DNA of 64,000 bases from Puia sp. (GTDB lineage Bacteria; Bacteroidota; Bacteroidia; Chitinophagales; Chitinophagaceae), in the NCBI GenBank assembly GCA_031292515.1, contig JARLGZ010000081.1, positions 62,001 to 126,000 on the forward strand, read 5' to 3'. The first letter of the stretch is position 1. Each line of letters starts with the position of its first letter. The position numbers and the translations under genes are program-made. Shown here one piece after another: positions 29,190 to 46,702 of this stretch. The notes beneath the pieces are model-generated. The model did no database searches. It worked only from the letters and a program-made list of their open reading frames with translations, and was not told where the DNA came from.

Positions 29190-29287
29190 TTAATTATCTA
29201 TTTTCTTTAATTGCCTGTTTCCCTTAATTGCCTGTTTCCCTTAATTGCTTGTTTCCCTTAATTGCCTGTTTCCCTTAATTGCCCGTT
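29190..29287. repeat. 17-bp tandem repeat between two barrel genes
   Basis: Six consecutive 17-bp units (29190, 29207, 29224, 29241, 29258, 29275, the last partial) with consensus TTAATTGCCTGTTTCCC. Units at 29207, 29224 and 29258 are identical. The array lies in the shared upstream region of two divergent outer-membrane protein genes. Confidence 0.93.
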
Positions 29288-42476: not shown

Positions 42477-44996
42477 TTGTTTATCACGTTCATTCTTATA
42501 TTATTCTTTTCCACCATACAGGTATTCTTTTGCACCATACAGGCCCAACAGCAGAGCCAGGTCCTGCAGGCTAGGCCCACGGTAACCGGCAAAAGCGTCC
42601 TCAAAGGCCGCATTCTCGACTCGCTTTCCAGGTCGCCCGTGGAATATGCAAGCGTGACCTTATACGCGAAAAAAGGCGCCCCCGCCATCAACGGCACGGT
42701 ATCAGGCAGCAAAGGCAGTTTTGCATTGGAAGGCCTTCCCGCCGGATCCTGGCTCGTCAGCATCGAAGCCATCGGTTACGGCACAAAGACCATAGGGCCG
42801 GTGACGGTCGGGAGCAAGACACCTACCGTCTCCCTGGGGGACATCTTTCTGACGAAGAAAGCGGCGGACCTGCAGGCGGTTACCGTCGTCGCACCCCGGG
42901 GTCTCATTGAGAATAAAATCGATAAAATGGTCTATAACGCCGAGAAGGATATCACTTCGCAAGGCGGCGTAGCCACGGATATTCTGAAGAAAGTGCCGAT
43001 GGTCTCCGTCGACGTTGACGGGAACGTAGAACTGCAAGGCAATGCAAACATCCTCTTCCTCATCAATGGCAGACCGTCCAGCATCTTCGGCAACAACCTC
43101 GCCGATGCCCTCCAATCCATCCCCGCCAGCCAGATAAAAAGCATCGAAGTCATCACCAGCCCGGGAGCAAAATACGACGCGGAAGGGACCGGCGGTATCA
43201 TCAACATCGTCCTGAAAGACAATAAGCTCAGCGGCATCAACAGCAATATCAGCCTCACAGGCGGCTCCCGCCTCGAGAACGGCTCCTTTAACCTGAACGC
43301 CCGAAAGAACAACTTCGGGATCAGCGCTTTCTTCAGCGGCAATGCCCAACTGCCTTCCACCACCCTGACGACCGCCACGCGCCGCTCCTTTGACAGCACC
43401 GGCAATCTCACCGATCTATTGCAACAGAATGGCAGCGGCCGGTTCCACCGGAATGGCTACGAATCGGGGCTCGGCTTGGATTGGAGCCTTGATAAACACG
43501 ATAACCTGTCCGCGAACATCGGCTATGACCACTTCGGCAACAATAACCGCGGCGCCTACCAGCAACAGGAGACCCAGTATGGAACTCCTCCGGGAAGCGT
43601 CCTCTCCGATATCTATAGCCTGGTCCAATCCCATAACCAGTTCCGGGCACAGTCTCTCGACTGGAACCTCCGCTATAAAAAGACCTATGCGCAGGAAGAC
43701 CGTGAACTGGATATCTCCGTCGACGGTAGCTTTGGAAAAAACAACGCCTCCTATGGACAAGTCCAGAGCCTGCCCTCCGGCGACTCCGTCTATTCAGGCT
43801 CGCAAGGCAATAGCACCGGGCACGACCGGGAGACGAATTTCAGGCTGGACTATGTGCATCCACTCGGAGAGGGAATAAAACTGGAGACAGGTGGCCGCAT
43901 ACAAGACCGCAGGATCAGCAGCACCTCGCCTTACTACGCTCTCGAGGCGACAAGCGGGTCCTATATCTATGATACGTCTCAATCCAATTCCCTGACCTAT
44001 AACCGGGATGTATATGCAGGCTATGCTTCGCTGACCTTCCCCGCCTTTCACTTCCTGGACGTCAAGGCCGGCCTCCGTTATGAGCGGACGGAGACGAACG
44101 CGGGTTTTTCAAAGTCACCCGGCACCCTTATCCCCGGCTATAATACCTTCGCGCCTTCGGTCACGCTGTTGCATAATCTCGGCGACGAACAATCCATAAA
44201 GATCAGCTATACACGCAGGATCCAACGCCCCGACTACCGGGGGCTCAACCCTTACGTGAATGCCACAGATCCAAAAAACCTGACGCGGGGCAACCCCTTT
44301 CTGCAGCCCGAAGTAGCGGATAACATCGACCTTACCTATGCCAAATCCTTTGCTGAAGGGAGCGCGCTAAACATCGTTCTGTTTTATCACCGCTCCGGCC
44401 ACGACATACAACCCTTTATCGAATACTATCCGGAATTCACCATCGGCGACTCCGTCTATAGGAACGTCTCCGTCAACACCCCCATGAATGTCGGCTCCGA
44501 AAACAACTACGGAATGAATATCTATGGCTCGATCCCGGTCGGCAAAAAGATAAACCTTCGAAGCAACCTATCCCTCTTCGACCGGTATATCACGACCGGC
44601 ACCCTCGGCGGCAGCTCCATCACCAGCTTCAACTACCGGATCAACCTGAACGCTACCTACCAGGCGACACCGAACTTCGTACTGGAGTTTTTTGGCAACT
44701 TCAATTCGGCGCGCAACGAGATCCAGGGCAGATACCCTTTCTTTACCTCCTATAACCTCGCCGCCCGGAAACAGTTCTGGAAGAAAAAAGTCAGCATCGC
44801 CTTTACCACGACCAACCCCTTCGCGCTGTACGTCAGACAGGCCACAGAACTTGCCGGAACGAATTTCACCCTGGACAACGTGAGACAGATCCCCTACCGC
44901 TCCTTTGGCATCAACATTACCTATAAATTCGGGAAACTGGAATTCAAAAAAGACAAAGAAGAGAACAGGGAACTCCCCGTGACCCCGGATAACTAG
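42468..44996 (+). CDS. TonB-receptor-like outer-membrane protein
   Basis: An 842-residue outer-membrane protein with a signal peptide, a carboxypeptidase-regulatory-like domain (about 45-120: GRILDSLSRSPVEYASVTLY), a plug domain (about 140-245: VATDILKKVPMVSVDVDGNVELQG... INGRPSS, SPGAKYDAEGTGGIINIVLK) and a large barrel. It resembles the Bacteroidota OMP_b-brl_3/CirA-like group of receptors, whose ligands are mostly unknown. No SusD-like partner follows. Its 3' end shows a duplicated AACTAGCC carrying the stop (44991 and 45003). Confidence 0.9.
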   Translation: MKHLFITFILILFFSTIQVFFCTIQAQQQSQVLQARPTVTGKSVLKGRILDSLSRSPVEYASVTLYAKKGAPAINGTVSGSKGSFALEGLPAGSWLVSIEAIGYGTKTIGPVTVGSKTPTVSLGDIFLTKKAADLQAVTVVAPRGLIENKIDKMVYNAEKDITSQGGVATDILKKVPMVSVDVDGNVELQGNANILFLINGRPSSIFGNNLADALQSIPASQIKSIEVITSPGAKYDAEGTGGIINIVLKDNKLSGINSNISLTGGSRLENGSFNLNARKNNFGISAFFSGNAQLPSTTLTTATRRSFDSTGNLTDLLQQNGSGRFHRNGYESGLGLDWSLDKHDNLSANIGYDHFGNNNRGAYQQQETQYGTPPGSVLSDIYSLVQSHNQFRAQSLDWNLRYKKTYAQEDRELDISVDGSFGKNNASYGQVQSLPSGDSVYSGSQGNSTGHDRETNFRLDYVHPLGEGIKLETGGRIQDRRISSTSPYYALEATSGSYIYDTSQSNSLTYNRDVYAGYASLTFPAFHFLDVKAGLRYERTETNAGFSKSPGTLIPGYNTFAPSVTLLHNLGDEQSIKISYTRRIQRPDYRGLNPYVNATDPKNLTRGNPFLQPEVADNIDLTYAKSFAEGSALNIVLFYHRSGHDIQPFIEYYPEFTIGDSVYRNVSVNTPMNVGSENNYGMNIYGSIPVGKKINLRSNLSLFDRYITTGTLGGSSITSFNYRINLNATYQATPNFVLEFFGNFNSARNEIQGRYPFFTSYNLAARKQFWKKKVSIAFTTTNPFALYVRQATELAGTNFTLDNVRQIPYRSFGINITYKFGKLEFKKDKEENRELPVTPDN

Positions 44997-45080
44997 CCTG
45001 ACAACTAGCCGACAAACCATTTCAGTAAAATCCAATATCTCTACAGAATGACGGTATAACTTTAAATAAATCATACCATC

Positions 45081-45509
45081 ATGAAAAAGACAACATTCCT
45101 GCTCATCGGCACACTGACGATCTTCAACGCCTACTCGCAAGACCTCAAAGAAAAGGATGTCCCCCCGGTCGTGAAATCCGCCCTAATGAAACAATTCCCG
45201 AAAGCCACGAAAGTATCCTGGGAAAAAGAGAAGGGAAATTTCGAAGCCAACTGGGGCGGAAAATCCGGAGAAGACAACTCCGCCCAATTCACGCCCGCGG
45301 GCAATTTTGTCGAGCTGGTGGAAAGCATACCCGTCTCATCCCTGCCCGCCAGAGTCGCTCCTTATGTAAGCGCACATTACAAAGGCGCTGCCATCAGGGA
45401 AGCCGGGAAAGTAACCGATGCCGCCGGAAAACACAGTATCGAAGTGGAGATCAAAGGGAAAGACCTGATCTTCGACACGGAAGGCAACTTTGTAAAAGAA
45501 GACAAGTGA
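45081..45509 (+). CDS. PepSY-like secreted protein
   Basis: A 142-residue protein with a signal peptide (1-20) and two PepSY-like (DUF2874/BLIP-like) units: VVKSALMKQFPKATKVSWEK and YKGAAIREAGKVTDAAGKHS. These periplasmic proteins of Bacteroidota have no settled function. It follows the receptor gene by 84 bases, with a near -7 element (TAACTTTA) in the gap. Its final codons and stop make up the first unit of a perfect-period 16-bp array. Confidence 0.85.
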   Translation: MKKTTFLLIGTLTIFNAYSQDLKEKDVPPVVKSALMKQFPKATKVSWEKEKGNFEANWGGKSGEDNSAQFTPAGNFVELVESIPVSSLPARVAPYVSAHYKGAAIREAGKVTDAAGKHSIEVEIKGKDLIFDTEGNFVKEDK

Positions 45510-45578
45510 CCAGGAAGGCAAGTAACCAGGAAGACAAATAACCAGGAAGACAAGTGACCAAAAAGACAGATAAATGAC
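45499..45578 (+). repeat. 16-bp stop-seeded tandem repeat array
   Basis: Five exact-length 16-bp units at 45499, 45515, 45531, 45547 and 45563. Unit one, AAGACAAGTGACCAGG, contains the last codons and TGA stop of the PepSY-like gene. Unit positions 9-11 read TGA, TAA, TAA, TGA and TAA. A 16-bp period shifts the frame by one base each time, so stops fall in all three frames. Confidence 0.95.
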
Positions 45579-45635: not shown

Positions 45636-46643
45636 ATGAAATCCTTTCTGTACTTATCGCTCCTGGCCTTTTTGTCCCAGGCGCCCGCTCACCTCCGTGC
45701 TCAGGCCTTCAAACCTTATAAAGCAGACAAAACGATCGCGCTGCCCGGCAACGGCGGCTATGATTATATTTCCCTGGACGCCACCGCCAGAAGGCTCTAT
45801 GTCTCCCATGGCACCTCGGTAAACGTAGTGGATCTGAGGACAGAGCAGCCTGTCGGAACCGTCGACAACCTGACCGGCATACACGGGATCGCCATCGCCT
45901 CCTCGCTCAACAAGGGCTTTATCAGCGACGGGAAAGCCAGCACAGTCGTCGTCTTCGAACTGACTACCCTCAAAACCCTCAAAACGATCCACATCACCGG
46001 GAAAGACCCCGACGCGATCCTATACGATCCTTTCACAAAAAGAGTCTTCACCTTCAACGGCGAAAGCAAGAATGCCTCCGTCATCGACGCAGAGACCCTG
46101 GAACCAATCGGCAGCATCGACCTGGGCGGATCCCCGGAATTCGGCGTATCCGACGGAGCAGGCTTGATCTACAACAACCTGGAAGATAAAAATGCCCTGA
46201 ATGTGATCGACGCTAAAGCCCTCAGGATCCTGCATACCTATCCCCTGGCTCCCTGCGGCGGCCCAACCGGTCTGGCCCTCGACAAAAAGAATCAGCGCCT
46301 GTTTACCGTCTGCCGCGAAAACAAAGGGATGACCGTAGTAGAAGCCTCAACAGGAAAAATCGTCACGACCGTGCCCATCGGCGCCGGAGTCGATGCCGTC
46401 ACCTATGACCCAAACACCGGCCTTATCTTCTGCTCCAATGGAGACGGCACCGCCACCATCATCCGCCAGGAGTCGGCTGACAAATACAGCGTGGTGCAGA
46501 CACTCAAGACACAGTTCAGGGCCAAGACCATGGCCCTCGACCCCGTCACGAAAAAAATATACTTCAGCGTGTATGATCTGAAAGACGACAAAAAGACCCG
46601 TGTCCCCGATAGTTTTAAACTGCTGGTCTACAAACCTTCTTAG
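45636..46643 (+). CDS. Secreted YncE-like beta-propeller protein
   Basis: A 335-residue protein with a signal peptide (about 1-22) and repeated propeller blades of the YVTN/YncE type (GYDYISLDATARRLYVSHGT, KDPDAILYDPFTKRVFTFNG, PTGLALDKKNQRLFTVCREN, VDAVTYDPNTGLIFCSNGDG). These are periplasmic or surface proteins, often linked to metal or redox functions, without defined chemistry. It follows the PepSY-like gene by 126 bases that include the repeat array. The last 19 bases including the stop are duplicated 34 bases downstream. Confidence 0.9.
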   Translation: MKSFLYLSLLAFLSQAPAHLRAQAFKPYKADKTIALPGNGGYDYISLDATARRLYVSHGTSVNVVDLRTEQPVGTVDNLTGIHGIAIASSLNKGFISDGKASTVVVFELTTLKTLKTIHITGKDPDAILYDPFTKRVFTFNGESKNASVIDAETLEPIGSIDLGGSPEFGVSDGAGLIYNNLEDKNALNVIDAKALRILHTYPLAPCGGPTGLALDKKNQRLFTVCRENKGMTVVEASTGKIVTTVPIGAGVDAVTYDPNTGLIFCSNGDGTATIIRQESADKYSVVQTLKTQFRAKTMALDPVTKKIYFSVYDLKDDKKTRVPDSFKLLVYKPS

Positions 46644-46677
46644 TCTGCAGACCCTTTTGGTCCACAAACCTTACTAG
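46625..46677 (+). repeat. Duplicated 3' end carrying the stop codon
   Basis: GGTCTACAAACCTTCTTAG (46625-46643, ending in the gene's stop) recurs as GGTCCACAAACCTTACTAG (46659-46677), 16 of 19 bases identical, with the TAG kept. Confidence 0.85.
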
Positions 46678-46702
46678 CCGACGCTAACCGGAAACCCAAG
46701 AT

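Follow-up and report, generated by a model that had tools for sequence, protein, structure and literature searches.

A 16-nt tandem array with a stop codon in every copy looks like an ordinary local duplication across a gene end in Puia

Why should a tandem repeat begin in the last codons of a gene and carry a stop codon in each of its copies? The question is raised by a 16-nt array in Puia sp. (Chitinophagaceae; genome 7.34 Mb), found in a 64,000-nt stretch of DNA that we refer to as the window. The array is placed between two co-directional genes, and its unit is purine-rich on the sense strand. The upstream gene encodes a PepSY-like protein whose N-terminus, judged by eye, resembles a signal peptide. 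Its 3′ end reads GAA GAC AAG TGA, and the array sets in 12 bases before that end, with the gene tail and stop forming the first repeat unit. The features are as follows.

45081-45509, + strand: PepSY-like gene, 142 aa (PF11396, 33.8 bits, over the cut-off)
45498-45568, + strand: tandem array, period 16, 4.4 copies, consensus GAAGACAAGTAACCAG (TRF score 100)
45498-45513, + strand: unit 1, the last three codons, the stop TGA (45507-45509) and 4 nt
45514-45529, + strand: unit 2, stop triplet TAA (45523-45525)
45530-45545, + strand: unit 3, stop triplet TAA (45539-45541)
45546-45561, + strand: unit 4, stop triplet TGA (45555-45557), which is the gene's nearest in-frame backup
45562-45577, + strand: unit 5, mostly decayed, with a TAA (45571-45573) outside the TRF array

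An earlier note on this DNA had described the array, its coordinates, its 16-nt period and its start in the gene's last codons, all of which the sequence and TRF confirmed. The stop series TGA, TAA, TAA, TGA, TAA does run through all three frames, its fifth member lying beyond the TRF array. Counted from the gene's own stop, the other two frames meet a stop at +13 and +29 nt. The gene's own frame meets one at +45 nt, so that the in-frame backup lies 15 codons downstream and all three frames are closed within 45 nt. The claim that the remaining positions vary freely did not hold up. In units 1-4, 12 of the 16 columns are invariant, the variable ones are one of the three stop columns and three of the other 13, and all four are A/G transitions. 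The stop in every copy rests on a single A/G column. Because an A/G change at the middle of TGA or TAA keeps a stop by construction, the swapping of one stop for another is no evidence of constraint. A base private to unit 2 creates GAAGGCAA (45514-45521), identical to gene sequence 34 nt upstream (45480-45487), a match due to chance or template switching.

As a repeat, the array is far beyond chance. When 152,493 nt of the sampled noncoding DNA were shuffled three times by a first-order Markov model, the top TRF scores were 43, 50 and 53, with 1, 8 and 8 rows scoring at least 40 and none reaching 60; the array scores 100. The real noncoding DNA, concatenated, yielded 238 rows of at least 40, 138 of at least 60 and 30 of at least 100. 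The array is also confined to one place, as its unit has a single match in its own genome. We collected 57 homologous loci, of which 55 had a readable stop and 47 of those were distinct (identity to the query about 23% to 71%), and scanned them by TRF from 40 nt before to 130 nt after the stop. A close strain did not turn up, the nearest homologue of the PepSY-like gene being 71% identical. The 16-mer array was absent from all 47. A TRF array near the stop was present only at the P. dinghuensis locus, where an unrelated 13-nt unit is repeated about 30 nt beyond the end of the gene copy.

The reading that we prefer, to which we assign a probability of roughly 0.85, is that the array is a neutral, private tandem repeat that arose by local duplication of a segment straddling the stop. 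Replication slippage or template switching probably made the first local duplicate of a 16-nt segment across the stop; further amplification would have brought the number to four or five copies, which would then have drifted mainly by A/G transitions. The first copy keeps the gene tail and stop complete, so that the protein is unchanged, and the array would have been tolerated for that reason; similar repeats at start codons would be removed, presumably by selection. Each stop beyond the first is there because the copied unit contained one, and a unit of 16 nt, not divisible by 3, moves the stops through all frames. With tail and stop intact in the first copy, a duplication of this kind leaves no trace in the protein. 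Position, repeated stops and frames are thus accounted for at one stroke. This reading also agrees with one of the two origins offered by the earlier note, a duplication series with little time to drift. Thus, even so striking a pattern can arise without selection, through duplication of a stop-bearing unit.

The alternatives make predictions about other arrays of the same genome, which we sampled in 66 stretches (1.364 Mb, 18.6%). Genes were called with a custom dicodon model that gives exact stops and approximate starts, and TRF arrays were counted at a score of at least 40 and a period of at least 8. The sample held 318 arrays: 111 coding, 145 intergenic, 48 overlapping a stop and 14 overlapping a start. 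The noncoding arrays fall into two classes, a dispersed heptamer family with 24 arrays (15 at stops, 0 at starts) and 183 arrays outside that family (33 at stops, 14 at starts), which we call private and which may still conceal small dispersed families. Unit lengths divisible by 3 occur in 64 of the 183 private arrays, that is, with no preference, versus 96 of the 111 coding arrays.

The earlier note had described the array as seeded at a stop codon, and more generally stop codons could be mutational nucleation sites for repeat birth through termination- or transcription-coupled slippage. We first favoured this explanation for private arrays. Under a coarse null that places arrays over all noncoding DNA, 48 of 207 arrays overlapped a stop, against an expected 19.3 ± 4.1 (0 of 300 simulations reached 48), and 14 overlapped a start, against 20.8 ± 4.4 (22 of 300 simulations gave 14 or fewer). 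The excess at stops was also seen once the heptamers were removed and arrays reaching more than about one unit into coding sequence were excluded (27/168 vs. 15.0 ± 3.6 at stops; 5 vs. 16.4 ± 3.8 at starts). In P. dinghuensis, the same null gave 4 of 20 noncoding arrays overlapping a stop, against 1.6 ± 1.3, with 25 of 300 simulations as high. Finally, in a permutation test on the first 564 kb sampled, with heptamer sites left in, the downstream recurrence of gene tails exceeded that in permuted pairs at stops (10.3% of 261 sites scored at least 8, vs. 4.1%) and not at starts (5.8% of 294 vs. 5.9%).

This crowding holds for the coarse null, but for private arrays it is gone when the null draws each array's position evenly from its own gap and lets it reach about one unit at most into the gene. 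Under this own-gap null, with the same exclusion of arrays reaching into genes, 28 of 155 array-gene pairings straddled a stop, against 28.2 ± 4.3 (KS p 0.96), and we dropped stop-seeded mutation at this point. At starts, 6 of 179 pairings straddled, against 23.7 ± 4.1; both denominators are pairings rather than arrays, as one array may be paired with the gene on either side of its gap and so be counted twice. The result at stops was nearly the same without the 16-mer array (27/154 vs. 27.9) and changed little when four cut-offs on array score and two on gene score were tried (21 observed against 24.6 expected at one extreme, 22 against 19.5 at the other). In four other Puia, 34 pooled arrays gave 4 of 28 pairings across a stop, against 3.1 expected. 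Counts of private array edges per ~10 nt, from −20 to +40 of the stop, were flat (14, 18, 13, 13, 13 and 11). Coding C-terminal repeats were rejected as a source of the stop excess, since arrays reaching more than about one unit into a gene had been removed from these nulls. The distance from stop to private array is therefore random, and what sets these arrays apart is their scarcity at starts. Because the coarse null covers 5′ regions, which repeats avoid, we ascribe its excess at stops to the scarcity of arrays there. Nucleation at stops is, in light of these placements, quite unlikely, and the idea of seeding is left without support. This bacterial genome seems instead to tolerate repeat birth at gene tails and rarely at starts.

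A second possibility, and the other origin offered by the earlier note, is a selected multi-frame stop cassette that catches read-through or frame-slipped ribosomes at the TGA of the PepSY-like gene. The stops in all three frames within 45 nt, with no copy of the 16-mer having lost its stop, are what such a cassette would look like. All-frame stops also come sooner at private stop-straddling arrays (median 69.5 nt, n = 34) than at other gene ends (148 nt, n = 973), in a comparison unmatched for gap length, which follows mechanically from the copying of a stop-bearing unit. However, the stop triplets are no slower to change than their neighbours. In 25 private stop-straddling arrays, the 16-mer array included, 42 further copies carried substitutions at 22 of 126 stop-triplet sites (0.175 per site) and at 96 of 625 sites elsewhere (0.154). 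Whereas 32 of the 42 copies still read stop, 10 read sense. Of 19 changed triplets, 9 exchanged one stop for another, where the substitution spectrum predicts a fraction of 0.306, and two of those nine come from the 16-mer array itself. The stop triplet is thus unprotected in private arrays, with a weak lean to retention in a small sample. In-frame stops at +1 show no excess in this genome either (5.5%, vs. 5.8% in P. dinghuensis). Fail-safe stops resemble the array in lying downstream of a primary stop, and Ho and Hurst (2019; PMC6764699) find no selection for such additional stops in eubacteria. On the stop-triplet rates, the array placement and the 15-codon distance to the backup, we reject a fail-safe cassette, which we regard as very unlikely. 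In the sampled 18.6% of the genome, private arrays start at random distances from stops and have stop triplets that change as fast as other positions, the two outcomes that the earlier note had named as speaking against its proposal.

It could also be that the copies matter and the stops do not, the array being a cis-acting RNA or DNA element such as a terminator, a protein-binding array or a 3′ end stabiliser. Its site between two co-directional genes is where such elements occur, and its purine-rich sense strand fits as well. Against this, we found no RNA fold of the array (z 0.53; 134 of 200 shuffles fold as well) and no terminator-like site at it, and the array is known from one locus and from none of the 47 distinct homologous ones. 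An intrinsic terminator or structured RNA was rejected for want of a stable hairpin with a T run. We consider a cis-acting role exceedingly unlikely.

We therefore infer that the array at the PepSY-like gene is neutral. Counted against the neutral reading are the coarse-null excess, the tail recurrence, the 9/19 lean to retention and the occurrence of tail repeats across the stops of three consecutive genes, the third of them judged by eye. The two neighbouring repeats are separate from the array.

44991-45015, + strand: short repeat, period 11-12, across the stop of the preceding outer-membrane protein gene, which ends at 44996 (TRF)
46624-46679, + strand: degenerate two-copy repeat, 22 nt, 18/22 identical, copies 34 nt apart, across the next gene's stop at 46641-46643 (by eye; not among the TRF rows)

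This genome is the densest in noncoding tandem arrays among the Puia genomes sampled, with 1.36 per kb of noncoding DNA versus 0.78 in the relative designated G002, 0.36 in P. dinghuensis, 0.32 in G007, 0.18 in G014, 0.16 in G041, 0.13 in G033 and 0 in G036, the relatives being more thinly sampled (600 kb of P. dinghuensis, 80-120 kb of six others). The top TRF score of the window (148) belongs to a 17-nt, 4.8-copy, 95% matching array between divergent genes at 29207-29287.

Among known systems, private intergenic minisatellites or VNTR-type arrays are lineage-specific, noncoding, head-to-tail repeats of 10-25 nt units formed by slippage. The 16-mer array shares with them its degenerate head-to-tail copies beyond chance, a unit that is unique to the locus and lineage-specific, its noncoding position and a length not tied to codons; it differs in having the gene's own stop within the first unit and in its setting, a genome rich in such arrays. 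The MIRU elements of mycobacteria are longer, dispersed, carry small frames and are tied to gene junctions and stop codons. As these elements are generally described, the array resembles them in its association with a stop and a junction, but not in being confined to a single locus. The nearest described case is that of the TAACTGA heptamer repeats of Beggiatoaceae, Cyanobacteria and some Bacteroidetes, which lie mostly just upstream of starts, with 13 sets in the genome described overlapping the upstream gene's stop (MacGregor 2015; PMC4679880). Like the 16-mer, TAACTGA arrays consist of tandem units bearing stops in all frames; unlike it, they are one heptamer at many loci. Three tandem copies of TAACTGA had no exact match in 33 Puia genomes. 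Among the open-licence literature matches listed, there was none on stop-straddling arrays or on the heptamers AGTRGTG and AGCTDCA in Puia, and four heptamer strings were not found there. All told, the array gives the impression of an everyday local duplication in which the stop signal was included by chance, rather than of a stop cassette built for that purpose.

The heptamers, a by-product of this analysis, matter more than the array itself, which with its 16-nt unit and single locus is not part of their family. The family in this genome, AGTRGTG, comprises the variants AGTAGTG, AGTGGTG, AGTAGTC and AGTAATG (29, 28, 21 and 10 sites) and forms 49 noncoding clusters in the sample. A same-strand stop lies 5′ of 43 of them; the gap is known for 42, and 28 of these straddle that stop, against 12.2 ± 2.3 expected, and 33 of the 43 begin between −19 and +3 of it. 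Taken alone, the TRF arrays agree (14 of 28 pairings vs. 5.8 ± 1.9; KS p 0.007). The 29 stops overlapped by clusters are 19 TAG, 10 TGA and 0 TAA, versus 41% TAA in the sample, a bias that is due in part to the unit's own sequence. Orientation is also skewed, with 30 sense and 4 antisense clusters in co-directional gaps (p 6e-6), and 11 antisense and 3 sense among coding matches. In the following examples from the sample, the array is anchored at the upstream gene's stop and runs in its sense, that gene's TAG or TGA being part of the array.

L048:15011-15092, − strand: AGTRGTG array
L150:4509-4583, + strand: AGTRGTG array
L164:292-416, + strand: AGTRGTG array
L156:9476-9647, + strand: AGTRGTG array

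An exact search of 33 Puia genomes for three copies of GTRRTGA plus one more base, with overlapping matches counted, returned 111 matches in this genome, 24 in G015, 4 in G006, 2 in G016 and 0 in the other 29; this pattern is nearly the same backwards, which makes a backwards control uninformative. At the one locus read in each, the array overlaps the called same-strand stop by 4 nt (G015), or follows it by 10 nt (G016) or 44 nt (G006). A different heptamer, AGCTDCA, has 196 matches in G002, 2 each in G019 and G011, 1 in G024 and 0 in this genome. In one 20-kb stretch of G002 (L128; G002:C14:500001-520000), eight noncoding stretches are 7-periodic, and five of them start at −3 to +6 nt relative to a same-strand stop; one of the remaining three is a different heptamer, and the other four G002 stretches are without this type.

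L128 630-659: AGCTGCA-type heptamer at a gene stop
L128 4061-4086: AGCTGCA-type heptamer at a gene stop
L128 9775-9808: AGCTGCA-type heptamer at a gene stop
L128 15904-15927: AGCTGCA-type heptamer at a gene stop
L128 18811-18849: AGCTGCA-type heptamer at a gene stop

Reverse-complement copies of this type lie beside starts at L128 15980-16005 and 16451-16490, an inverted pair in one gap. The AGCTGCA-type unit has no stop codons in its forward frames. Anchoring in G002 thus seems independent of stop content, a further argument against a stop-cassette function. It is possible, at somewhat less than even odds, that Puia species each have their own heptamer, spread to gene ends, whose arrays attach to gene stops in sense orientation with the gene's TAG or TGA inside the array. 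Such heptamers might land at gene ends or be drawn to them, for example by microhomology-driven copying or by deletions that collapse the 3′ flank onto an array. Against generality, the 7-periodic noncoding stretches in the samples of G033 (1), G036 (2) and P. dinghuensis (1) include none at stops. Stop-anchored, species-specific heptamer arrays in Puia are natural experiments on the spread of short tandem repeats and on the reason for their settling at gene ends.

We also considered whether heptamer arrays truncate genes, and five genes gave no sign of it. The L150 gene, whose product is presumably an ABC-permease-like protein, has one and the same last residue at all 12 loci extracted. For the L048 gene, 7 of 10 genomes had a 70% homologue, and the alignments in these seven extend to residue 876-877 of 877; for the L151 gene the alignment extends to residue 1023 of 1024 in the one close homologue; in both cases the homologues' stops were unseen. 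Alignments end 4-5 residues short for the L160 gene (8 of 10 genomes with a match) and 1-4 short for L082 (10/10), which suggests a small array-coded extension in these two genes, the ends of local alignments being soft. Contigs C143 and C198 of this genome, and C20 of G015 in its first 170 bases, begin with long near-perfect heptamer arrays. Assemblies probably break at such arrays, and the longest ones may be missing from them. In G021, the reversed TAACTGA pattern matched 11 times, and this genome may carry yet another heptamer.
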